DNA of 64,000 nucleotides from positions 620,001-684,000 of the forward strand of contig NZ_FOFA01000001.1 in assembly GCF_900110855.1 (NCBI RefSeq), written 5' to 3'. The first letter of the stretch is position 1; every line of letters begins with the position of its first letter. The position numbers and the translations under genes were made by a program. Shown here one piece after another: positions 10,801 to 42,903 of the stretch. Below the pieces are notes generated by a model that ran no database searches, was not told where the DNA came from, and worked only from the letters and a program-made list of their open reading frames with translations. The DNA is from Microlunatus flavus (GTDB lineage Bacteria; Actinomycetota; Actinomycetes; Propionibacteriales; Propionibacteriaceae).

Positions 10801-11676
10801 GTGGGGGCGGTCCGTCGGCGGGCGACCGGCACGGTGCTGGTCGCCTCCTGGCTCGTGCTCGCGGGTTGCACCACGCCGGCTGGGCCGGACGGTCCGGCGA
10901 GCGCCAAGCCCGCCGGTCCCATAGTGCCGTCGTCGAGCGCGGCGTCGCCCTCCCCCGCCGCCCTGCCCGCTACCTCGAGCCCGCGGGTCGGGGTGCCGAG
11001 CATCGCGCTGCCCACGGCGGAGGCGACCCCGACGGCCACGCCACGGAGCTGCTCGGACCAGGTGCTGCGCGCCCGGGACACGCGCCTGCGGGGGTCGCGC
11101 GAGAGCGTCTACTGGGACCTCACGATCCCGACCTTCTCCGGCGCGTCCTCCGCCGACGCCGTGAACCGTCACGTCCGCGCGTCGGCGCAGGACGCGATCG
11201 ACACCGGTCTGCGGGAGGGCGAGGACGACGCGGGCTACCGCCGCGACGTCCAGGGGCGCGCGACCGTCACCCGCAGCGACCGGCGGACGGTGCAGGTCGA
11301 GCTGCGGTGGGGCGACTACCTGGCCGGCACGGCGCACCCGACCGACCACGTCGGGACCACCGTGGTGACCACCGACCAGGGCCGACCCGTGCGGCTGCGC
11401 GACGTCCTCGCCGACGTGCCCAGCGGTCTGCGGGCCCTCGGGAAGGCCGTCCGGAAGCAGTCGGGCCCCGTCGACACCCACGGCCTCGCCCCGAAGGAGA
11501 AGAACTTCGCGGCCTGGCAGACCACGGCCAAGGGCATGCGGTTCACGTTCGGCGACTACCAGCTGGGCGGGCACGGGCTCCGCACGTACACGGTGCCGTG
11601 GACGACCGTGCGCCCGCTGCTGTCCGACTACGGCACCGGCCTCCTCGACCCGGACGTCGACCCCTCGACCTGCTGA
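10801..11676 (+). CDS. DUF3298-type lipoprotein
   Basis: A 291-residue secreted lipoprotein: signal peptide with lipobox LAGC (Cys23), a Ser/Pro/Ala-rich linker (about 25-80), then a folded domain ending in the FTFGDYQLGGHGLRTYTVPW block that resembles the DUF3298/RsiV-like C-terminal fold. The linker and lipid anchor place it on the outside of the membrane. The GTG start lies 6 nt after the flavoprotein stop and no ribosome site stands out. The 3' end overlaps the convergent DUF389 gene by 49 nt. The function is unknown; RsiV-like domains can bind lysozyme, but that cannot be assumed here. Confidence 0.8.
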   Translation: MGAVRRRATGTVLVASWLVLAGCTTPAGPDGPASAKPAGPIVPSSSAASPSPAALPATSSPRVGVPSIALPTAEATPTATPRSCSDQVLRARDTRLRGSRESVYWDLTIPTFSGASSADAVNRHVRASAQDAIDTGLREGEDDAGYRRDVQGRATVTRSDRRTVQVELRWGDYLAGTAHPTDHVGTTVVTTDQGRPVRLRDVLADVPSGLRALGKAVRKQSGPVDTHGLAPKEKNFAAWQTTAKGMRFTFGDYQLGGHGLRTYTVPWTTVRPLLSDYGTGLLDPDVDPSTC

Positions 11677-12629
11677 GCCCCGACCCCGTCGGCCCTCCGC
11701 CGGCGCCGCTGGGTGACGAGGCGCCAGAGACCACGCTGGACGAGGAGGGTCACCACCCCGGCGGCGACCATGCCGGCCAGGTTGATGCCGAGCTGCGCCG
11801 CCGCGCCCGGCAGCTGGTCGAAGGCGCCCACGGCCAGCGACAGCGCGAAGTCGCCCGCGGCGGGGACGGTCGTCACCGAGATGAACACCCCGACGAGCGC
11901 GTTCGTCCGCCCGCCCGTCTGGGACAGCACGCCGGCGCACCCCGCGAGCACGGCGACGACGGCCGACCACAGGTCCGGGCGCCAGACGAAGCCCGTCAAC
12001 GGCCGTGGTCCGGTGACGTCCTCGAGGTGGACCCAGCCGAGCGCCCGTGCGAGCAGGGCGAGGAGCAGGGTGAGGCCGATGGCCACCGCGAAGCTCTGCG
12101 CGAGGAGCCGGGCCGCGCGGGTGAGCAGTCCCGGACGCCTGGCCACGAGGCCGACGGCCAGGGCGGCGACCACGGCGAACTCGGGCCCGACCACCATCGC
12201 CCCGACGACGAGGATCGAGGAGTCGGTGACCACGGCGACCGCCGCGATCGTCACCGCCAGGGTGAGGAAGGCGTAGAAGGAGTAGGAGCCGCGCACCTCC
12301 CCGTACGCGTTGTCCACGACCGCGTCCCAGATGATCGCGTCGTCGGGGGCGCCGGTCGCCGCGCGCTCGACCTCGCGGGCGTTGACCGACGGTGCGGCGG
12401 AGAGGTCGCTGATCACGACCGAGCCCTCGTCGAACAGCCCCTCGCGCCGCAGCCAGCCGAGGACGTCCGACGCGGCCTCCCGCGTCACGTCGCAGCTGAC
12501 GACGTCGCCGAGCGGCCGCAGCGCCGCGCCGGGCAGGTGCACGACGTCGGTCACCCGCGGGTCGTCGACGAGGGTCGCCACCACGGCCTCGGCGCGGGGC
12601 GCCGGGACGACCAGGCGGAGGTTCAGCAT
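11628..12629 (-). CDS. DUF389 membrane protein
   Basis: A 333-residue protein. The N-terminal soluble part (1-115) has the LRLVVPAPRAEAVVATLVDD pattern of DUF389. It is followed by about five or six membrane helices, with the conserved stretch VVGAMVVGPEFAVVAALAVGL. DUF389 proteins are widespread and of unknown function. The ATG at 12629 is 6 nt after GATGGT, which keeps the critical A and T of a -10 box, so it could be another leaderless start. It is convergent with the DUF3298 gene, and the two coding ends overlap. Confidence 0.85.
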   Translation of the reverse strand: MLNLRLVVPAPRAEAVVATLVDDPRVTDVVHLPGAALRPLGDVVSCDVTREAASDVLGWLRREGLFDEGSVVISDLSAAPSVNAREVERAATGAPDDAIIWDAVVDNAYGEVRGSYSFYAFLTLAVTIAAVAVVTDSSILVVGAMVVGPEFAVVAALAVGLVARRPGLLTRAARLLAQSFAVAIGLTLLLALLARALGWVHLEDVTGPRPLTGFVWRPDLWSAVVAVLAGCAGVLSQTGGRTNALVGVFISVTTVPAAGDFALSLAVGAFDQLPGAAAQLGINLAGMVAAGVVTLLVQRGLWRLVTQRRRRRADGVGAQQVEGSTSGSRRPVP

Positions 12630-31606: not shown

Positions 31607-31679
31607 GGGGCCTTGGCGCAATTGGTAGCGCACCTGCTTTGCAAGCAGGGGGTTAGGGGTTCGAGTCCCCTAGGCTCCA
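31607..31679 (+). tRNA. tRNA-Ala (anticodon TGC)
   Basis: A 73-nt cloverleaf. The acceptor pairs GGGGCCT with AGGCTCC, the discriminator is A, and CCA is not encoded. The D arm is GCGCAATTGGTAGCGC, the anticodon arm CCTGC-TTTGCAA-GCAGG (anticodon TGC), and the T arm GGGGTTCGAGTCCCC. The lower-GC island begins just after its 3' end. Confidence 0.97.
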
Positions 31680-31812
31680 CTGCGAGAACCTTCCCCGGGC
31701 TTCCTCACAGCCCCGTGGTATGCGCCTAAAGCCTCTTAAGGGGATCATGTAGCGCCTTGCATTCGCAGATACTGCTGGCCAACTTCCCGACTTCAAGGCA
31801 TCCGTCTTCAGC

Positions 31813-31867: not shown

Positions 31868-33097
31868 GTGACCCACGCACAGCAGGGCAACACCAGTGCG
31901 CTCTCCGCAAACCTCTTCTACCCGGAGTCCCTGACTGCCGTCCGAGAGTGCTCAGGGCCGTGCGGCCAGGCCAAGCCCGCGACAGCCTTCCCGACAATCA
32001 GCCGAAAGGCTGGCGCCCGTCACGGCGTGTGCCGAGCATGCCGAGATGATCGACTGCGGATCGCAAGATCCATCCGACCTAGCGCTCGCGACGACGACCC
32101 CAGTGTCCAGCGACAGAAGGTCTACGACGTTTGTCGAGACGTGGTGGTCGCGCACGCCGGACAGCCAGTGTCGCTCACCCAGATCTTCATAGAGGTCTTC
32201 GACTCGGTCAAGTTCGTTCCGAGTGAGTCAGACGTTCGCGCCAGCCTGGAGAAGCTGCTGAAGGAAGAGAGCCAGTTAATCAAGTCGCACGGCGATGCCT
32301 ACGCATGGGAGGCGCACGGTCAGGCACCTTCGGTACCTTCTGCTCCATCGCGCGTAGAAGAAATGTTAAGACGACGGCTGCAGGGTCAGACTCTGGACGA
32401 GATCGGCCTCGAGTTCGACCTCACGCGAGAGCGAGTCCGGCAAATCCTCAAGCAGCACGGGGGGCCCAGTGCTAAGGAAGTGCGTAATCTTCGAGCGACA
32501 CAAGTCAGGCTCACCCAGGTCGATCGGGATGCGGCCGCCACATCCGAAATTCGCGCCGCACTGAAGGACAGCAAACCGATGTCGGCAGAAGAGGTCGCGG
32601 AGTTAACCGGACTCGATGCGGCTGACGTTTGGAGATCCTGGCCTCGTGACCTCTCACACCTCCGCTTGTGGGGGACTGGAAAGATAACAAGCCGCTGGAC
32701 AGACGCAGAAATCCTTGCGGCTTTGCAAGAAGCATCCACGTATGAGTTCCCCCTGACGACGACAGCCTATCGTGAATTAATTCGGGTCGGTCAAGTCGTT
32801 GGACCCTCGGTACCAAGAATCGGACAACGATTTGGCAGTTGGTCGGCCGCGTGCGCAGAAGCCGGGGTCGTCTCGGGCGAGCGACCAAATCGCAATTACG
32901 AATCTAAGTGGAGCGATGAAGACCTCTTGAAGATAGTTCTTACCTACCTTCTAGATCCGCAATCGCCCAATTCCGCCCATCGGTTCGACGACTGGAGGAG
33001 GCAGAATGCGCCGGACGGCCCCTCTGCTCAGACGCTACGCAACCGGTTCGGCTCCTGGACAGAACTCAAGAGACGCGCGTTAGCGCTGAAGGGGTAA
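31868..33097 (+). CDS. Zinc-finger / sigma-like HTH / HNH-associated-repeat protein
   Basis: A 409-residue first gene of the island operon; the GTG start follows AGGGAGG at good spacing. Four cysteines (28, 32, 55, 58; CSGPC and CRAC) form an N-terminal zinc site like that preceding HNH nucleases, but no HNH catalytic block is visible. A helical region (70-140) resembles a winged helix. At about 174-197, TLDEIGLEFDLTRERVRQIL is a sigma-70 region-4-like helix-turn-helix. Two C-terminal repeats (about 275-337 and 345-406), each ending FGSW plus a helix, match the HNH-associated repeat of homing nucleases. It reads as a DNA-binding specificity or regulatory protein. Codons are less GC-rich than in flanking genes. 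Confidence 0.75.
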   Translation: MTHAQQGNTSALSANLFYPESLTAVRECSGPCGQAKPATAFPTISRKAGARHGVCRACRDDRLRIARSIRPSARDDDPSVQRQKVYDVCRDVVVAHAGQPVSLTQIFIEVFDSVKFVPSESDVRASLEKLLKEESQLIKSHGDAYAWEAHGQAPSVPSAPSRVEEMLRRRLQGQTLDEIGLEFDLTRERVRQILKQHGGPSAKEVRNLRATQVRLTQVDRDAAATSEIRAALKDSKPMSAEEVAELTGLDAADVWRSWPRDLSHLRLWGTGKITSRWTDAEILAALQEASTYEFPLTTTAYRELIRVGQVVGPSVPRIGQRFGSWSAACAEAGVVSGERPNRNYESKWSDEDLLKIVLTYLLDPQSPNSAHRFDDWRRQNAPDGPSAQTLRNRFGSWTELKRRALALKG

Positions 33098-33101
33098 CGA
33101 G

Positions 33102-35150
33102 ATGACCGAAACGGCCAGACTGGACGGCATACTTGCGAAATCCATCGACGAGAACACACGCAACGGAATGTGGAGCTCCGTAAGCGAGATCTTAAAGCAG
33201 GGACCCTCAGAAGGAGTCGCATCGCAAACGACTTCCCTCGCCCTTGGCTACGTCCAGTCTGGTAAGACCACGTCGATCACTGCCCTTGCAGCAGCCGCAG
33301 CGGACGCGGGATACCAGTTGATCGTCGCGCTTCTGGGCTCGACCAACCTGCTCCTCGATCAGAACAGCAGTCGCCTTGAAGGCTCGTTAGGCATCACAAC
33401 AAGATCTGACTACGTGTGGATCAGCGAGACCAACCCGGCAACCGAGGCGTCCGGGAAGAAGTTGCGCAAGTTCGTCGAGATGGGTCGCGTGTGCCTTGTT
33501 CCTGTTCTGAAGCATGCAGGGCGCATTCGAGCAGTTGCGAAGCAACTCGAGAAGATTCCGGATGATCTACGGGTCCTTATCATAGACGACGAGGCTGACC
33601 AGGCATCCTTGAATACGAGCAAGGACGCAGAGAGCAGAACGTATTCGGCCATTCGAGACCTTCGAAATGCTGTGCCGAATCACTTGTACGTTCAGTACAC
33701 GGCCACCCCCTACGCCCCCTTGCTTTTGGACGCAGCCGATCTCCTCAGCCCCCAGCACGTCGAGTTCCTCGTCCCGGGGAAGGGCTATACGGGCGGCAAA
33801 CAATTCTTTATAGACAACGCCGACCGAGTTATTCGGAACGTGCCGCTGCTCGACGAACAAGCTTCCAAGACGCCTCCGCTCCAGATGCAGAAAAGCCTCT
33901 TTCAAGCGGTGTCCGCTTTCCTAGCAGGCTCCGCGCTGCTCCTGCATCATGGGACCGCGAGCCCACCTATAAGCATGCTCGTGCATTCAACTGCTCGCAA
34001 TGACGTCCAGGCGCGGTACGAGTTTCTCATCCGCCGCCAGCTCGAACAGTGGAAGAAATCAGTCGTCGCAGGCGACATCACGACGGTCCCCGAATCAATA
34101 ATCGAGGAGCGTCAAAGAATCGTTGCGCATGGGGCGCAGGACACAGACGACTCTACCTTCGCTTCTAAACTCAAGGTCGTCATCTCCGAGGCTATGACAT
34201 GGCTAGTGAACAGCGCTGCAGATGTGAACAAAGTAGATTGGCACGTCTCTCCCATTCACATCCTTGTCGGAGGAAACAAACTAGATCGAGGGTTCACAGT
34301 AGAAGGGCTGACCGTCACCTACATGAATCGACCTGCTAGTCCGCAAGTCGACACTCTCGAGCAACGAGCTCGTGCATTCGGGTATCGCGCCGATCTCCTG
34401 CCCTACTGCCAGTTCTTCGCCAGCAAGAAAACAATCCGCTCTCTCACGGAGGTCGTTCATACCGAGGAAGACCTCCGAGCCCGCCTTCGCGACCACGTTG
34501 AGAGCGGTGGCTCAGTACATACCTGGGCCGCCGAGATTGGCCTGTTGCTGCCTGAAGGAATGACGCCTACCAGGTCGAGCGTTACGAGCGCACTGTCGAC
34601 CATGAAACTAGGCTGGCACCAGATGCGCATGCCGTCGAGACTTACTGACGACACGCAGCACAACCAAGCCCTCCTAGAGCAAGTCGGATTGATGCGTGCT
34701 CGGCCGTTGTCACAGGGCAGGCTCGGCTTCAGAACGATTCATGTCGATTCGATGAAGACGCTCGAACACTTATTGAATGGCTGGGCTCGACCAAGTTATA
34801 GCCCTGGGTGGCTGCACGAGGAACTCGTTGACGCCGTAGCCCGGCGGTTCGCGCACGTGAAGAGGGCGACAGTCATGCTCATGGAGGATGGCGGCAAGCC
34901 TCGTAAGCGCCGCTGGCTAGATGACGTCGGATTCGTCAACCTATTCCAAGGTCGTGACTTGAAGCCACAGTCTAACGGCGACTTCTATCCAGGGGATCGT
35001 TTCGTAGAGAATGTCGAACAAGAGCCAGACCAAATAATCGTACAAGTACACCGCACGCAAGTACGAGGACATGAAAATGAAGGCGAGCTACTGGCACTCG
35101 CCATCTACCCTGGCGCTGGTCTCGTAGTCCGAAAGGAGTCAGATGTCTGA
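33102..35150 (+). CDS. Z1-domain P-loop ATPase (SF2-like)
   Basis: A 682-residue protein with SF2-like motifs: Walker A GYVQSGKT (49-56), Walker B LIIDDEAD (159-166) and YTATPYA (199-205). The Z1 block (about 386-428) includes GGNKLDRGFTVEGLTVTY and DTLEQRARAFGYR, where arginines act like motif VI of helicases. Z1 proteins occur in restriction-modification-type operons with MutL/MORC-like ATPases, DNA methylases and Vsr, as described by Iyer, Abhiman and Aravind. This one is on the short side for the family. It lies 4 nt after the first gene and overlaps the ParB-like gene by 8 nt, so the subunits are probably made together. Confidence 0.88.
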   Translation: MTETARLDGILAKSIDENTRNGMWSSVSEILKQGPSEGVASQTTSLALGYVQSGKTTSITALAAAAADAGYQLIVALLGSTNLLLDQNSSRLEGSLGITTRSDYVWISETNPATEASGKKLRKFVEMGRVCLVPVLKHAGRIRAVAKQLEKIPDDLRVLIIDDEADQASLNTSKDAESRTYSAIRDLRNAVPNHLYVQYTATPYAPLLLDAADLLSPQHVEFLVPGKGYTGGKQFFIDNADRVIRNVPLLDEQASKTPPLQMQKSLFQAVSAFLAGSALLLHHGTASPPISMLVHSTARNDVQARYEFLIRRQLEQWKKSVVAGDITTVPESIIEERQRIVAHGAQDTDDSTFASKLKVVISEAMTWLVNSAADVNKVDWHVSPIHILVGGNKLDRGFTVEGLTVTYMNRPASPQVDTLEQRARAFGYRADLLPYCQFFASKKTIRSLTEVVHTEEDLRARLRDHVESGGSVHTWAAEIGLLLPEGMTPTRSSVTSALSTMKLGWHQMRMPSRLTDDTQHNQALLEQVGLMRARPLSQGRLGFRTIHVDSMKTLEHLLNGWARPSYSPGWLHEELVDAVARRFAHVKRATVMLMEDGGKPRKRRWLDDVGFVNLFQGRDLKPQSNGDFYPGDRFVENVEQEPDQIIVQVHRTQVRGHENEGELLALAIYPGAGLVVRKESDV

Positions 35151-36249
35151 GACATTGCCGACGAGCGCCGGTAGGTCTGGCACAGTTCCACTCGAGAGGT
35201 TGCGACTCGACCCGGAGAATCCACGGATTCCGGAGACGCACCGGACAACGGACACTGCGGAACTCGCGACTCTGCTGGAAATGGGATTCGAGGCGTACCC
35301 AGTAGCCCAGTCCATCGCCGAGCTAGGTTTTTTCAACGCGGAGCCGCTCATCGTCGTCCCAAGCCAGGACGAGGAGGGTGCGTGGATCGTCGTCGAGGGG
35401 AACCGTCGCCTGACCGCGCTGGTGGGCCTTGCCTATCCGAAGATTCGCGCCGAGTTCGCAACACCCGATCGGTGGGATCGGCTTGCGGCCAAGCGCACAA
35501 TCAGTCCTTCCGCCCTCATTCCTGTAGTGATGCACAAATCTCGAGCTACAACCCACGCGGAAGTAGCCCGAGTCCACGTAGTTGGAAAACTTCCATGGCG
35601 CCCCTTCATGCAGGCGAAGTACATCGCTGCGCGAGTGGCTGAGGGTAGGACCCTCCAAGAAGTTGCTGATCTCATTGGTATCCCGAAGAGCAAGGCTGCC
35701 GACCTGTACCGCGACCAGGCCGTTCTGGCTCAGGCTTCGACTATCGGACTCGAGACGTCCCAGGTCGAAAGCGCATTCTCGCTCTTGACCGTGGCCATGG
35801 GCAGCACCAAGATTCGGAACCACGTGGGTGCTCCGCTCGGGTCACAAACCGTGATCGGAAAGGATCCGATCCCCGTAGATAAGGCTGATGAACTCAGGGA
35901 AGTAATCCGGTGGGTGTTCGGCGACGAAGAGCACGAATCGCTCATCTCTGACTCGCGACAGATCTCGCAACTCGGCAACGCGGTCGCCTCCGAGGTAGGC
36001 CTCGAAGCACTTCGGGACGGTAAAACTCTCGAGGAGGCCAAGCAGCGCATCCAGGAGAAGGGGCTTGATCCCCTCAAGGCCTTGACGCTTAAACTGACGG
36101 CGGCGAGGAGCTCACTGACCGCGGCCAGCAGCGACGTGGCGGAGTTCGGGCTCGACAAGGAAATCCGAGATTTGGTCGACGACATCGAGTCGCTCGTGGG
36201 TAGCATCCGATCGACACTCGAAGACGCCGGGGCGGACGCAGAGCGATAA
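35143..36249 (+). CDS. ParB-like DNA-binding / nuclease-domain protein
   Basis: A 368-residue protein. The N-terminal ParB-like domain reads VPLERLRLDPENPRIPE, then SIAELGFFNAEPLIVVP and VVEGNRRLTAL, where the ENPR and GNRR boxes correspond to the conserved ParB boxes. A helical HTH-like part follows (LQEVADLIGIPKSKAADLYRDQAVL), and the C-terminus is long and helical (ARSSLTAASSDVAEFGLDKE). Plasmid partition is unlikely because no ParA is present. Embedded between the Z1 ATPase and a nuclease-like gene, it probably gives DNA recognition or an NTP-driven clamp to the defence complex. Confidence 0.8.
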   Translation: MSETLPTSAGRSGTVPLERLRLDPENPRIPETHRTTDTAELATLLEMGFEAYPVAQSIAELGFFNAEPLIVVPSQDEEGAWIVVEGNRRLTALVGLAYPKIRAEFATPDRWDRLAAKRTISPSALIPVVMHKSRATTHAEVARVHVVGKLPWRPFMQAKYIAARVAEGRTLQEVADLIGIPKSKAADLYRDQAVLAQASTIGLETSQVESAFSLLTVAMGSTKIRNHVGAPLGSQTVIGKDPIPVDKADELREVIRWVFGDEEHESLISDSRQISQLGNAVASEVGLEALRDGKTLEEAKQRIQEKGLDPLKALTLKLTAARSSLTAASSDVAEFGLDKEIRDLVDDIESLVGSIRSTLEDAGADAER

Positions 36250-36252
36250 TTG

Positions 36253-37125
36253 ATGGTTGACCTAGAGGTTTCAAGTACCGAGGCCATCGCGGACTGGATC
36301 GAAACGAGCGTGCTTGTCAGTTCGTCGGGCCACTTAGGTCGAGACAGGCTGGACGACCTTGCCGCCTCAGAGGTGGGGGCCTCGGCCATGAAGGTCGCGA
36401 TGGCCATCGATACGATGGCCAAGCGGGCGAAGGTACTGGGTGATTCCTACCCATTCAGGGTGAGCGATCTTGCGGTACTTCGACAGAAGAGTGTCCATGC
36501 TGACCGATACTCTGCTCTACTTTTCCTGACACCGGGTTCCGTTGCACGTCAAACCGTCAGAGCGCAGGAAACGGCGGCAATGGGCAACCTTTTGGAGGAG
36601 ATCGCGGAAGCTGCGCTCGCAAATTTCTGGGGCCTCGGCGGTATAGCACTCTCCTTCGGCTACCCTTCGAAACATGGTCGCCCCGAACCTTTCGATCAGG
36701 CTGTCCTGTGGCTTGCCGGCAAAATCGGGCTAGAGGCGGGCCGAGGTTACAGGCCTCCGCGACGGAAGGATGGCGGCGTTGACGTCGTGGCGTGGCGACA
36801 GTTCGCAGATCGCCGCCCAGGATTTCCGCTTGCACTCGCGCAGTGCACGATCCAAGCGGAAGCCTTCACGAAGACTACGGACATCGACCTACGCCTGTGG
36901 GCCAGTTGGCTCGCGATGGACAGTGATCCCCTTAGCCTACTTGTGATTCCAGGGACCATTCGATCCGCGGGTCCAGATTGGCGACAACTAACCACGGTCG
37001 TCATGGTCTTGGACCGGATTCGTCTGATGGAGTTGTTGAGTCGAGGCTCGGAGGACCGCGAAGTTCGTTGGGCGACAGAGACGGCTTCTGCGCTTAGAGT
37101 GCACCTCAAGGCGGGCGAACTATGA
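36253..37125 (+). CDS. PD-(D/E)XK-like restriction endonuclease candidate
   Basis: A 290-residue protein (ATG at 36253; an in-frame TTG one codon earlier is possible). The C-terminal half has RKDGGVDVVAWRQF (about residues 171-184), a spacer, then PLALAQCTIQ (about 191-200), resembling the D...(D/E/Q)-X-K core of restriction-type folds; GNLLEEIAEAAL supplies the helical glutamate. The lysine usually seen after QC is threonine, so activity is uncertain. It starts 3 nt after the ParB-like stop and overlaps the next gene by 4 nt. I place it as the effector nuclease by motif and context. Confidence 0.65.
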   Translation: MVDLEVSSTEAIADWIETSVLVSSSGHLGRDRLDDLAASEVGASAMKVAMAIDTMAKRAKVLGDSYPFRVSDLAVLRQKSVHADRYSALLFLTPGSVARQTVRAQETAAMGNLLEEIAEAALANFWGLGGIALSFGYPSKHGRPEPFDQAVLWLAGKIGLEAGRGYRPPRRKDGGVDVVAWRQFADRRPGFPLALAQCTIQAEAFTKTTDIDLRLWASWLAMDSDPLSLLVIPGTIRSAGPDWRQLTTVVMVLDRIRLMELLSRGSEDREVRWATETASALRVHLKAGEL

Positions 37126-37403
37126 CGACCAAGGCCGACATCGTCCGGAACATCGCATCCATACTCGGAGTCGAGGCGCCGAAGATGTCTACTGGGTCGA
37201 CGGAGCCGCGGGAAATCTTCGAGATCGTCAACGAGCGACTTGGCCTGGGCCTCGACAGGCGGCTCACTAAGCCTGACATGGCTCGTCAGATCGTCGAGGC
37301 CGCGGGACTGACCTGGAACGCACACCATGAGAGCAACGGCGGAACTGTCACGAAAGTAGGCCTTGAGGCCGTTATGCGAGCCGTCGAGCACTTCGTCGGC
37401 TAA
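37122..37403 (+). CDS. Small protein of the Z1 operon
   Basis: A 93-residue protein whose ATG overlaps the previous stop (ATGA). Two similar helical blocks, KADIVRNIASILGVEAPKMSTG and TKPDMARQIVEAAGLTWN, look like SAP-type or small DNA-binding modules, since (K)(A/P)D(I/M).R.I is repeated. No catalytic motif is visible. It is the last gene of the tight five-gene unit and is followed by a 190-nt gap. It may be a DNA-binding accessory subunit for the nuclease-like protein. Confidence 0.7.
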   Translation: MTTKADIVRNIASILGVEAPKMSTGSTEPREIFEIVNERLGLGLDRRLTKPDMARQIVEAAGLTWNAHHESNGGTVTKVGLEAVMRAVEHFVG

Positions 37404-37409
37404 GGAGAA

Positions 37410-37441
37410 CGAGGGGCTACACCGACTAAAGGGAGCCCTCA
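37410..37441 (+). terminator. Weak hairpin after the Z1 operon
   Basis: GAGGGGCT and AGCCCTC flank a 15-nt loop just downstream of the five-gene unit. One base bulges and there is no T-run, so this is only suggestive. Confidence 0.3.
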
Positions 37442-37596
37442 TCCGATCCATGGCGCGGCAAGAGCCGCAAGTATTAACGGCCTTTCCTTCTCGAAGCGCT
37501 AGCCAATTCGGGGCTTAGGCAGCACAATTGTCAGGCCAACTCTCCGGAGTCTACTGGCCGAGAGTACGCCGGTTTGAGAGAAACCTCAGGAGAGCC

Positions 37597-38115
37597 TTGA
37601 ACACCCATGCCGGAAAAACTTTCAACGTTCCTACCCATCCGGGAACTACGAGCGACACCATTTCAGAGCGGATGTCGAAGGCGGCTCGCAAGGACACCGG
37701 TCCAGAACTCGCTGTTCGTCACGAACTACACAGACGCGGTCGTCGGTACCGCGTCTTCGTCCGAGTTCCTGGACGGAACCGGCGAACCATCGACATCGCC
37801 TTCACGAAAGCGAGGTTGGCGGTGTTCGTCGATGGCTGCTTCTGGCACGGTTGCCCTGAGCACGGCACCATGCCGACGCACAACAACGCCTGGTGGGTCG
37901 TGAAGCTTGCCGCAAACCAGGGCCGCGACCGTGACACAGACGAGCACCTCGCGAACGAGAGCTGGGGGGTCCTCAGAATCTGGGAGCACGTCCCCGCCGC
38001 CGAGGCGGCGGACTTGGTCGAGGCGGAGCTCGACCGGCTAGCCGCCGAGCGCGCTCCGTCTAGAGCGCGATCGCGGGCTGGGGCTCCGGCTGACCCTCCC
38101 TCGCCGCCGGATTGA
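37597..38115 (+). CDS. vsr: Very short patch repair (Vsr) endonuclease
   Basis: A 172-residue T/G-mismatch nicking enzyme that repairs deaminated 5-methylcytosine next to a C5 methylase. The core is complete: TSDTISERMSKAARKDTGPELAVRHELHRRG, then RTIDIAFTKARLAVFVDGCFWHGCPEH with catalytic Asp and the zinc/active-site His and Cys, and WWVVKLAANQGRDRDTDEHL. A TTG start at 37597 is chosen because AGGAGAG precedes it and the conserved N-terminal region begins before the first ATG (37672). The last 56 nt overlap the convergent methylase gene. Confidence 0.9.
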   Translation: MNTHAGKTFNVPTHPGTTSDTISERMSKAARKDTGPELAVRHELHRRGRRYRVFVRVPGRNRRTIDIAFTKARLAVFVDGCFWHGCPEHGTMPTHNNAWWVVKLAANQGRDRDTDEHLANESWGVLRIWEHVPAAEAADLVEAELDRLAAERAPSRARSRAGAPADPPSPPD

Positions 38116-39457
38116 GCACGTCCCCGCAGGGGTTGAGGTCAGCACCGAGCATCGCCTGACGCACCCGCTCCGACACCTGGGGACGCGCCGAGCGGGCGTC
38201 TGCCTCGACGTGGCTCCGCAACACGTGCCACGCCGCACCAACGGCCACGCCGTTGCCCACCTGCTTGTAGGACGAGGCCTCGCGCCGGTTGTTGAACTCG
38301 AAGGATCGCGGCAGACCCTGCAACCGGGCCGCCTCGTGCGGAGTCAGCCGACGCTTCCGAGAACCGACGATCGATGTCTGAGTGATCGCGACGAGCGCCG
38401 GCAGGTAGGTGGCGGCCTTCGCGCGGATGCCCGAGGGGCGGAAGTGCATGACCGTGTCCCAGAGCGAGCGCGAGTCCTGGGCCTGCCACTCCAGCTTGCG
38501 GCGAGTGGCGGGAAAGGACGCGAGCGCAGGGTGCGTGCTGCGCCAGAGGTCGATCAGTGCCCGGTTACCCGCGTAGAAGGCAAGGTTCTTCCGCGTGAAG
38601 TCGGCCTTCCACACGGGCATGAGCGCCAGCTCGTCCTCCCCGGGCTCAGCACCCGGCTGCCACAGGTCGGACCAGAGTGGAAATCCCGGCAGGCGATGCC
38701 CACGACTGTCCCAATGAGCACGGACCAGGTCGTCCCAGGTCTGCACCCACTCCCGCTCGACGGCGTTCAACCGGTAGCGGTCGAGGTCCGCGATGGTGCT
38801 GTCGTCGTCGAGCACCCACTCGACGTCCCAGCGGGAGGGGTCCCAGCCGTCGACGGGCGCGCGCAGCACCGTCGGGCCGATCTCGGTCTCCTGCATCGCC
38901 CGCACGGGGCCGACGTGCGTCCCGACGATGAAGACGCGGTCGCGGACCTGCGGCGTGCCGCCGAGGTGGGGCGGGAGAAGGTGCGGCGAGAACACCGTCG
39001 GCGAGCTGGAGACCCGGTAGCCGAGCTCACGAAGCGTCTTGATGATGACGTCCCACTCGTGCCGGTGACGCGGACCAGCGATGTTCCGCACGTTCTCCAG
39101 CAGCACCACCGAAGGGCGACGCTTCTCGAGGATCTTGGCGATGTTCCAGAACAGCGTTCCTCGCGCCTCGTCCATGCCGCGCTGGAAGCCGGACTTCGAG
39201 AAGGGCTGGCACGGGAACCCAGCCGTCAGCACGTCGTGCTCGGGAACGTCGACGGCCACGTCGTTCGCGGCCGTGGTGATGTCGGAGTTGAGGACGGGCT
39301 GCGGGTCGTGACCCTCGACCCAGTTGTGCTTGTAGGTCGCCATGGCCTGCTCGTCGATCTCGGAGACGAAGACGCACTGCCCGCCGGCGTGGCTGAGGGC
39401 GGCATGGAAGCCACCGATGCCAGCGAAGAGGTCCACGAACTTGAACGCCGGAGCCAT
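38060..39457 (-). CDS. dcm: DNA (cytosine-5) methyltransferase
   Basis: A 465-residue C5 methylase with all main motifs: I FVDLFAGIGGFHAAL, IV GFPCQPFSKSG (catalytic Cys), VI LLENVRN, VIII QVRDRVFIVG, IX-like LTPHEAARLQGLP and X YKQVGNGVAVGAAWHV. The target-recognition region lies between VIII and IX (about residues 190-370); its specificity is not readable. The start at 39457 is 7 nt after TAAGCT, which rules in a leaderless message over the longer frame. The GC content is as high as the chromosome's, unlike the Z1 operon. Confidence 0.95.
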   Translation of the reverse strand: MAPAFKFVDLFAGIGGFHAALSHAGGQCVFVSEIDEQAMATYKHNWVEGHDPQPVLNSDITTAANDVAVDVPEHDVLTAGFPCQPFSKSGFQRGMDEARGTLFWNIAKILEKRRPSVVLLENVRNIAGPRHRHEWDVIIKTLRELGYRVSSSPTVFSPHLLPPHLGGTPQVRDRVFIVGTHVGPVRAMQETEIGPTVLRAPVDGWDPSRWDVEWVLDDDSTIADLDRYRLNAVEREWVQTWDDLVRAHWDSRGHRLPGFPLWSDLWQPGAEPGEDELALMPVWKADFTRKNLAFYAGNRALIDLWRSTHPALASFPATRRKLEWQAQDSRSLWDTVMHFRPSGIRAKAATYLPALVAITQTSIVGSRKRRLTPHEAARLQGLPRSFEFNNRREASSYKQVGNGVAVGAAWHVLRSHVEADARSARPQVSERVRQAMLGADLNPCGDVLNPAAREGQPEPQPAIAL

Positions 39458-39464
39458 GCCAGGG

Positions 39465-39470
39465 AGCTTA
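39465..39470 (-). promoter_or_regulatory. -10 box TAAGCT, leaderless methylase transcript
   Basis: Minus strand: TAAGCT, 7 nt, ATG at 39457. Confidence 0.65.
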
Positions 39471-39682
39471 GCAGCTCGAGCTTCCGTTCGATTGCGACAC
39501 GCCTCGAAGGGAAGGAACTCCTGCACGCCGCGAGCCTAGGAGGTGCGGCGACCCTTGGCCAACCCCGCTTGTTGTCCTGCCGAGCTGGGTGTTGTCATCC
39601 GCACGTTGGCTCACTCGATCAACCCCACCTTCTCCCAGCCTGGGGCACAGGCCGCACCTGACGGCGGCCCGACGTGATCGTG

Positions 39683-40022: not shown

Positions 40023-41288
40023 TCAGGTTCCGCGGCGCCGCAGCACCACCGCCCGCCCGACGATCCCGAACGCGAGCACGGCGCCACCGGCGATGACCGA
40101 CGTAAGCGGCAGCCTCACCGACAGCACGAGGCAGCCCAGGAGCCCGACCACGTTCACCGCCCGCGGCCAGCGGCGCTGCTCGGCCGGCTGCCGGAACGCC
40201 GACAGGTTGGCGACGGCGTAGTAGACGAGGACGCCGAACGAGCTGAACCCGATCGCCTGCCGCACGTCGGCCAGGCACACGAGCAGCACGATCCCGGCGC
40301 CGATCGCCAGCTGGGCGTGGTCGGGCACCTGGTGAACCGGGTCCACCGAGGCGAGGGTGCGCGGCAGGTCGCGCTCGCGCGCCATGGCCAGGGTCGTACG
40401 CCCGACCCCGGCGAGCAGGGCCAGCAGCGCACCGAGCGACGCGGCCGCTGCCCCGACCCGCACGACCGGTGACGCCCACCCCGCTCCCGCGGCCTGGACG
40501 AGCGCGACCACCGGGGCCGACTCATCCCCCAGCGCAGGACCGAGGACCAGCAGCAGGACCACGGCGACAACCGCGTACACGACGACGGCGATCCCGAGGG
40601 CAACGAGCACCGCGCGGCCGAGCATCTCCGGGCGGCGCACCTCCTCGGCGAGCGTGGTGATCCGCGCGTACCCGGCGAACGCGAAGAACAGCAGCCCCGC
40701 CGCCTGCAGCACCCCGAGCACACCGCCGGTCGGGGCGTCGAGGCCGCTCCACGGGTCGGCCGCGCGTACGCCGGCGGCCAGCCCGACGCCGACGGCCAGC
40801 GCGAGCGTGAGCAGCGTCGTCGCGAGCAGCACCCTGGCCACCTGCGCGGTCCGGGTCACGCCGCGGAGGTTGGCCAGCGTGAGCACGACGACGGCGAGCA
40901 CGGCGAGGCCGCGGCTCCACCAGGGCGGTGCGGCGGGCAGCGCGTACGCGGCGAAGGTCAGGGCCATCGCCGCGCAGGAGGCGGTCTTGCCGACGACGAA
41001 GCCCCAGCCGGCGGTGAAGCCCCACCAGGGGCCGAGCACGCGGCGGCCGAAGAGGTACGTGCCGCCTGACGACGGGTAGGACATCGCGAGCTGGGCCGAG
41101 GCGACGGCGTTGCAGAAGGCGACGACGGCGGCGACCGCGAGCCCGACCAGCAGCCCTGCACCCGCCGCGCGGGCCGCGGGGACGAAGGCCACGAACACGC
41201 CCGCGCCGACCATCGCGCACAGCCCGACGACGACGGCGTCGCCGGTGCCGAGCCGTCGGGCGAGGGTGGGTCCGGCCACGTCGTCCAT
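40023..41288 (-). CDS. APC-superfamily amino acid permease
   Basis: A 421-residue transporter with 12 hydrophobic segments. Helix 1 contains GLCAMVGAGVFVAFVPAA (the conserved G-(S/A)-G-x-F substrate-binding break), and helix 6 contains LLFFAFAGYARITTLAEEVRRPE, which is typical of cationic/APA-type members. The substrate is not predictable. A small membrane protein follows on the same strand. The start lacks an obvious ribosome site or -10 box at leaderless spacing. Confidence 0.92.
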   Translation of the reverse strand: MDDVAGPTLARRLGTGDAVVVGLCAMVGAGVFVAFVPAARAAGAGLLVGLAVAAVVAFCNAVASAQLAMSYPSSGGTYLFGRRVLGPWWGFTAGWGFVVGKTASCAAMALTFAAYALPAAPPWWSRGLAVLAVVVLTLANLRGVTRTAQVARVLLATTLLTLALAVGVGLAAGVRAADPWSGLDAPTGGVLGVLQAAGLLFFAFAGYARITTLAEEVRRPEMLGRAVLVALGIAVVVYAVVAVVLLLVLGPALGDESAPVVALVQAAGAGWASPVVRVGAAAASLGALLALLAGVGRTTLAMARERDLPRTLASVDPVHQVPDHAQLAIGAGIVLLVCLADVRQAIGFSSFGVLVYYAVANLSAFRQPAEQRRWPRAVNVVGLLGCLVLSVRLPLTSVIAGGAVLAFGIVGRAVVLRRRGT

Positions 41289-41421: not shown

Positions 41422-41889
41422 ATGCAGCACGCCGGTGACGCCGTGACGTTCGTGGTCGTGCTGTGCCTGCCGGTCGCCGTGTGGTTGATCAGCCGCCCGT
41501 GGGCGTGGGAACGGATTCGCCCGTACGCGCGTCGGTTCGGCCTGCGGATCTGGGGCCAGCTCGTCGTGGACGAGGAACCCGACCCCGCGACCCTGCAGCG
41601 CTGGGCGGTCGAGCGGCTCGGACGGCTGCGCACCGACCTCGAACGTGTGCGGCGGCTGCTGCTCGACGACGAGTGGATGTCGGCGACCCGGCAGGTCGGC
41701 AACCGGCTCGCCTACGAGCGGCTGGTGGTCGACGTGCGCCGGGCGGAGGCGCAGGTACCGGCCGCCCTGGTTCCCGACGTCGCCGCGGCTCCGACGCCGG
41801 TGGCGGCGCCACGCTTCGCCTTCGTCGCACCGAGCGGGCAGCCCTCGGTCGAGGTGATCGAGTTCGGACCGGCCGGCCGCTGGCTCTGA
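41422..41889 (+). CDS. Single-pass membrane protein, unknown
   Basis: A 155-residue protein: one N-terminal helix (VTFVVVLCLPVAVWLI), then a basic cytoplasmic stretch and a likely coiled or helical part (LQRWAVERLGRLRTDLERVRRLLLDDEW), a proline/alanine linker and a short C-terminal domain. No known motif. The ATG has a weak GAGGAC ribosome site. It converges on the SEFIR gene (24-nt gap). The earlier in-frame start would run through the permease promoter region and was not used. Confidence 0.75.
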   Translation: MQHAGDAVTFVVVLCLPVAVWLISRPWAWERIRPYARRFGLRIWGQLVVDEEPDPATLQRWAVERLGRLRTDLERVRRLLLDDEWMSATRQVGNRLAYERLVVDVRRAEAQVPAALVPDVAAAPTPVAAPRFAFVAPSGQPSVEVIEFGPAGRWL

Positions 41890-41913: not shown

Positions 41914-42903
41914 TCAAGACCTCGCGGCGACAGTCCCGCGCAGGATCGCGAGCGCCTGACGGGCCGACTCCTCGTCCACCACGTCGATGGCCACCTGATG
42001 AGAAGCGCTGCTCGACCTGACCCGGCGTGCGCGCGACTTGTCGCGCAGGGTGTCGACGATGGCGCTCTCCGCCACCTTCGGGTTGAGCCGTCCGGTGTTG
42101 GCGTAGAGGTAACCGACGGTCTTGCCGTCGACAAGGAGCCGCAGGTAGCCGGTGAAGTCGTCACCCGAGCGAGGGCCGTCACCCCGGTGGCGGGTTCCGC
42201 GCACTTGGGTCATCGGCCAAGACGCGAACTCAGAGAGAAGCTGCCGAACAGCGCCGGCAGTCGAGTTCCGCGCAAGCTGCTCCTGGACCACGAGCTGCCC
42301 GTCGTCCGGCACGCCCGCCACAGTCTCGTGCCGACTTGGAGTCCCAAGCGCATCGTCCATCGCCGCGATCCGGCGCGCCGGCAGATCGGGGACCGACCCG
42401 AGGTCCGGCATCCGGAACTCCTCGCCGCCGTGGAGCAGGCGGAGCAGCGGCGTCATCGCGTCGAAGGTCAAGTCCTTGAGGACGAACCGTTGCTGACCCA
42501 TCAGCTGTGCGGGGATGTCCCCACGATCGGCGCCAGGAAGAACCACCACGAGCAGGCGCCTACGGAAGTCGTGCTGGTCCTTCTCGAAGAGACCGAGCAG
42601 CGTGTTCGCCTCAGCGGCCGCGCCAGCCCCACGGGTCGGCGAGTTGGTCCCCTCGAAGCGCTCTCTCCAGGCTCGATTGACGATCGCCAGCGTGAAGTCG
42701 CACTCCCGAATCCGGCTCGGACCCCACTGGGTCCACACCACGCCCGGCTCGGAGTAGTGGAAGAGGTCGACGTCCGCATCCACACCGAAGTGGCGCAGGT
42801 TGACGGTCAGCTGAAGCACCTCCCCCAGCCACTGGTCGCTCTCGACTCCGAAATCAGGGTCGTGAGCCCAGGAGATCAGCGCGGTCGGGGCCGGGCTAGG
42901 CAT
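41914..42903 (-). CDS. SEFIR-domain protein
   Basis: A 329-residue protein. The N-terminal SEFIR/TIR-like domain (about 5-150) shows ALISWAHD, LRHFGVDADVDLFHY, a central Trp-rich GVVWTQWGPSRIRECDFTLAIV, and RRLLVVVLPGA, close to the conserved blocks of SEFIR (PF08357). The rest (about 200-329) is an alpha/beta region ending in GYLRLLVDGKTVGYLYANTG with no clear match. Bacterial SEFIR proteins have been reported as single-gene anti-phage systems acting by NAD depletion; by that precedent this is a candidate. The start has an AGGGAG ribosome site. Confidence 0.85.
   Translation of the reverse strand: MPSPAPTALISWAHDPDFGVESDQWLGEVLQLTVNLRHFGVDADVDLFHYSEPGVVWTQWGPSRIRECDFTLAIVNRAWRERFEGTNSPTRGAGAAAEANTLLGLFEKDQHDFRRRLLVVVLPGADRGDIPAQLMGQQRFVLKDLTFDAMTPLLRLLHGGEEFRMPDLGSVPDLPARRIAAMDDALGTPSRHETVAGVPDDGQLVVQEQLARNSTAGAVRQLLSEFASWPMTQVRGTRHRGDGPRSGDDFTGYLRLLVDGKTVGYLYANTGRLNPKVAESAIVDTLRDKSRARRVRSSSASHQVAIDVVDEESARQALAILRGTVAARS

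Follow-up and report, generated by a model that had tools for sequence, protein, structure and literature searches.

An island beside a tRNA-Ala gene in Microlunatus flavus (contig NZ_FOFA01000001.1; the 64,000-nucleotide stretch from 620,001 to 684,000 is referred to as the window) has the appearance of a DNA restriction system that joins a protein related to ParB, known from chromosome segregation, to a predicted nuclease. Many bacteria and phages carry ParB–nuclease pairs next to genes for DNA-modifying enzymes, and the island of the window appears to be such a pair to which an ATP-driven motor protein has been added. Given that pairs of this one kind are found beside unrelated modification chemistries, the simplest reading of these sequence comparisons is that the pair is the restriction half of the system and that the modification half is exchangeable. 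We conclude that the set is real and recurring, and that it is probably a new form of restriction–modification and not an unprecedented type of biology. No published description of the pair was found in the literature searched, the scope of which did not extend to subscription papers and preprints.

Modification partners of the ParB–nuclease pair

We identified 164 ParB–nuclease pairs, in most of which the ParB gene lies directly upstream of the nuclease gene and overlaps it. Two of these pairs derive from overlapping ParB calls in one locus, L066 (163 without this duplication), and two loci, L006 and L019, each hold two real pairs. The relatives kept by the two pattern scans were the best 80 of 266 and the best 80 of 106. 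The loci were chosen for the ParB-like protein, so the pairing is conditional on that choice, and they share ancestry, so the counts are not independent events.

A modification gene lies within 1 kb of 141 of the 164 pairs: a C5-cytosine methylase in 118 cases, a D12 N6-adenine methylase in 11, an N6/N4 methylase in 6 and a DndE-type gene in 6. For 13 further pairs a C5 or D12 gene is found at 1–8 kb. Modification genes were called by local profiles, and examples were verified with Pfam or PADLOC; of 109 neighbouring open reading frames (ORFs), 57 were included in the Pfam scan. A DNA methylase gene thus recurrently adjoins the predicted nuclease gene, as in restriction–modification systems broadly defined. 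In the first kilobase around a pair, C5 matches reach 38.9 per 100 kb, vs 0.7–1.4 farther out in the same loci (L006 and L019, with two pairs each, were left out of this count). On a quick tree of 120 pairs, from which nine unassigned rows were left out, the partner chemistry changes at least seven times. Among the Dnd-related loci, a DndE+HerA-type gene adjoins the pair in L045, L066, L068, L070 and L083, and a DndD/PbeC-like gene is also present in all of these except L066. In L045, the PbeC/DndD-like and DndE+DndH-C-terminal-like proteins are encoded directly upstream of the pair (Pfam, PADLOC).

The first-pass annotation had read the island as a variant Z1 defence system in which a ParB-like protein replaces a GHKL ATPase. 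This interpretation holds in part. Its view of the gene set as unusual and recurring is borne out, and no HATPase family was detected by Pfam in the seven island proteins, nor was one found in the window. The key part of the set, however, is the ParB–nuclease pair and not the missing GHKL gene. Its identifications of the Z1 and ParB-like proteins, and of Vsr followed by a convergent C5 methylase, were upheld (Table 1).

The ParB-like protein

The N-terminal nucleotide-binding fold and basic box place the ParB-like protein in the ParB/Srx superfamily. R89 is kept in 110 of 110 rows, in a box that the search patterns favoured. The string VEGNRR was part of the genome scan pattern and of one of the two viral patterns, and the invariance of EGNRR is therefore partly built in; EGNRR was also present in 9 of 9 inspected sequences found without that pattern (the window, L002, L003, L005, two in L006, L007, L008 and L009; L004 and plasmid matches were left out). 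A canonical ParABS ParB was considered and rejected: no ParA family was detected by Pfam among the seven island proteins, and N87 stands where the GERR box has its glutamate.

The ParB/KorB fold with its helix-turn-helix (HTH) domain, together with the title of the KorB entry (transcriptional repressor), raises the alternative that the protein is a repressor or controller, in the manner of DndB or of C proteins, which sets when nuclease and methylase are expressed and has no part in cutting. For DndB, ATP-dependent repression is described in PMC12704722 and PMC10853773. We consider this alternative unlikely, as the ParB gene in most cases lies directly upstream of the nuclease gene, overlaps it and co-varies with it (r = 0.90) far more than with the methylase, and the same type of pair is combined with modification genes of four kinds.

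The predicted nuclease

Among 109 nuclease rows, D174 (D or E), D178 and R256 are conserved in all 109, K208 in 106 and Q198 in 105, which we read as a putative PD-(D/E)XK active site whose lysine is displaced. The nuclease profile weakly matched one PDB chain, 4f0p (E = 0.023, aligned over GDGG-D...-Q), whose entry is a restriction endonuclease and which we take to be MspJI. Mrr_cat gave weak matches in 5 of 109 members, and the nuclease matches phrog_14650 at 1e-15. PADLOC 2.0.0 returned no match for the five nucleases scanned.

This nearness to MspJI bears on a second alternative, in which the pair is a type IV system that cuts DNA carrying foreign modifications and the methylase is an epigenetic neighbour or decoy. 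GmrSD_N, which like MspJI belongs to modification-dependent enzymes, is matched by 10 of 110 ParB members, and AspBHI-type domains are found in L079 and L023; in L023 the domain of the 93-residue island protein occurs in the same ORF (10960-12075) as an RE_AspBHI_N domain (Pfam). Such a role is nevertheless improbable: C5 methylase genes, present within 1 kb of most pairs, are 28- to 59-fold denser there than farther out, and with any of the four unrelated chemistries the host could turn its own DNA into a target of the enzyme it encodes.

Several observations weigh against reading the island as a restriction system. No modification gene was found within 8 kb of 10 of the 164 pairs, of which six end less than 2 kb from a contig edge and four lie on contigs that continue. 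The glutamate-to-asparagine replacement in the ParB-like protein makes hydrolysis doubtful. The nuclease class was assigned through weak profile matches, and its lysine lies at Q+10 (canonical Q-x-K, Q+2). The window shares 82–84% identity in ParB but only 52–54% in the C5 methylase with L010, L011, L013 and L024, vs 56% and 81%, respectively, with the congener G001; judging from these identities, methylase genes are swapped without the restriction block being swapped along with them. Vsr repairs T:G mismatches from deaminated 5-methylcytosine (5mC), and its co-variation with the C5 methylase is weak (r = 0.30). In two cassettes of E. coli P2-like prophages (L008, 96-3266; L009, 4980-8016) the methylases are 98% identical, the ParB-like proteins 32% and the nucleases 25%, an unexpected pattern for a pair that would recognize a single fixed site.

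The island and the tRNA-Ala site

Table 1 Features of the island in the window
Feature	Position	Strand	Evidence or remarks
tRNA-Ala (TGC)	31607..31680	+	Island left edge; ARAGORN
Gene 1 of island	31868..33097	+	Pfam, phmmer; PHROGs endonuclease VII 1.8e-4 over residues 18-84
Z1 gene	33102..35150	+	PF10593 1.1e-36; tree; motifs read in sequence
ParB-like gene, 368 aa	35143..36249	+	Nucleotide-binding fold of the ParB/Srx type; HTH domain in the centre; long helices at the C terminus; EGNRR box
Predicted PD-(D/E)XK-type nuclease, 291 aa, partner of ParB-like protein	36250..37125	+	D174, D178, Q198, K208; true start may be ATG at 36253
Gene for 93-aa protein	37122..37403	+	No usable family match
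Vsr mismatch endonuclease	37528..38115	+	TIGR00632 99.4 bits vs cut-off 97.85
C5-cytosine DNA methylase, DruM-like type, convergent with vsr	38060..39526	-	PF00145 5e-71; PADLOC PDLC00034 5e-219; likely start at 39457

The tRNA-Ala(TGC) gene is present in 8 of 9 congener stretches checked with ARAGORN, the exception being L201. An orthologous island adjoins it in the congener G001 (L193; tblastn synteny), where part of the right flank is the same as in the window: the protein at 41914-42903, the product of 41431-41889 and a cold-shock-like protein are kept, and a counterpart of the permease at 40023-41288 is not there. In the congener G010 (L196, 3248-6391) the site holds instead a 1047-residue gene, a methyl-directed type IV restriction enzyme by PADLOC (mREase_IV, 1180 bits); genes related to those of the window's right flank come after it. 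A system that makes 5mC and a type IV enzyme of this class may be mutually exclusive, to judge from these two genomes, which fits exchange at one tRNA-Ala site. No duplicated tRNA end was seen when looked for at this site.

The protein at 41914-42903 (minus strand) looks by eye like a SEFIR/TIR-like domain protein, with no Pfam match at 1e-3; a 57% identical copy occupies the same position beside the congener island.

Comparison with known systems

Checked against catalogued systems, the island is none of MZA, CglI/NgoAVII or PD-Lambda-5. The MZA set consists of MutL-like, DUF4420 and AIPR proteins, none of which was matched in the island proteins by profile scans including Pfam and PADLOC. 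The Z1 protein gave partial PADLOC matches to Helicase_II (7e-46) and MzaC (1e-27), the latter at 114.5 bits vs an NCBI cut-off of 1500. In CglI/NgoAVII the R-protein combines PLD and B3 domains, according to PMC4267653, whereas the island has ParB-like and PD-(D/E)XK-like proteins and no PLD or B3 domain by Pfam.

PD-Lambda-5 (Vassallo et al. 2022, PMC9519451) resembles the island in that an N-terminal region of ParB type (E 1.5e-17, residues 14-146) is encoded next to a DNA methylase. The match to PD-Lambda-5_A is confined to its N-terminal part (best stretches, profile positions 4-177 of models 428-592 long), and PD-Lambda-5 B is a D12-type methylase by PADLOC, whereas the island has a C5 methylase; full-length A and D12-type B are thus both lacking. 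The nuclease of the island has no PADLOC match. PD-Lambda-5 can also adjoin the pair as a separate complete set: a complete A+B lies directly upstream of the pair in L037 (6549-8968, PADLOC), and this arrangement recurs in L042, L044 and L047, with PD-Lambda-5 called by local profile.

GmrSD, BrxU and SspE (ParB_n/DUF262 + HNH) likewise couple a ParB/Srx-superfamily NTPase domain to a nuclease; they are type IV enzymes with a DGQQR motif and an HNH-type nuclease (PMC12373910). The island differs from them in its EGNRR box, its HTH domain, its separate PD-(D/E)XK-like protein and its neighbouring methylase. For the Wphi-type cassette gp98-gp96-mth of P2-like phages we know of no system name; it also combines a ParB-like protein, a nuclease and a convergent C5 methylase, and its pair is homologous to that of the island.
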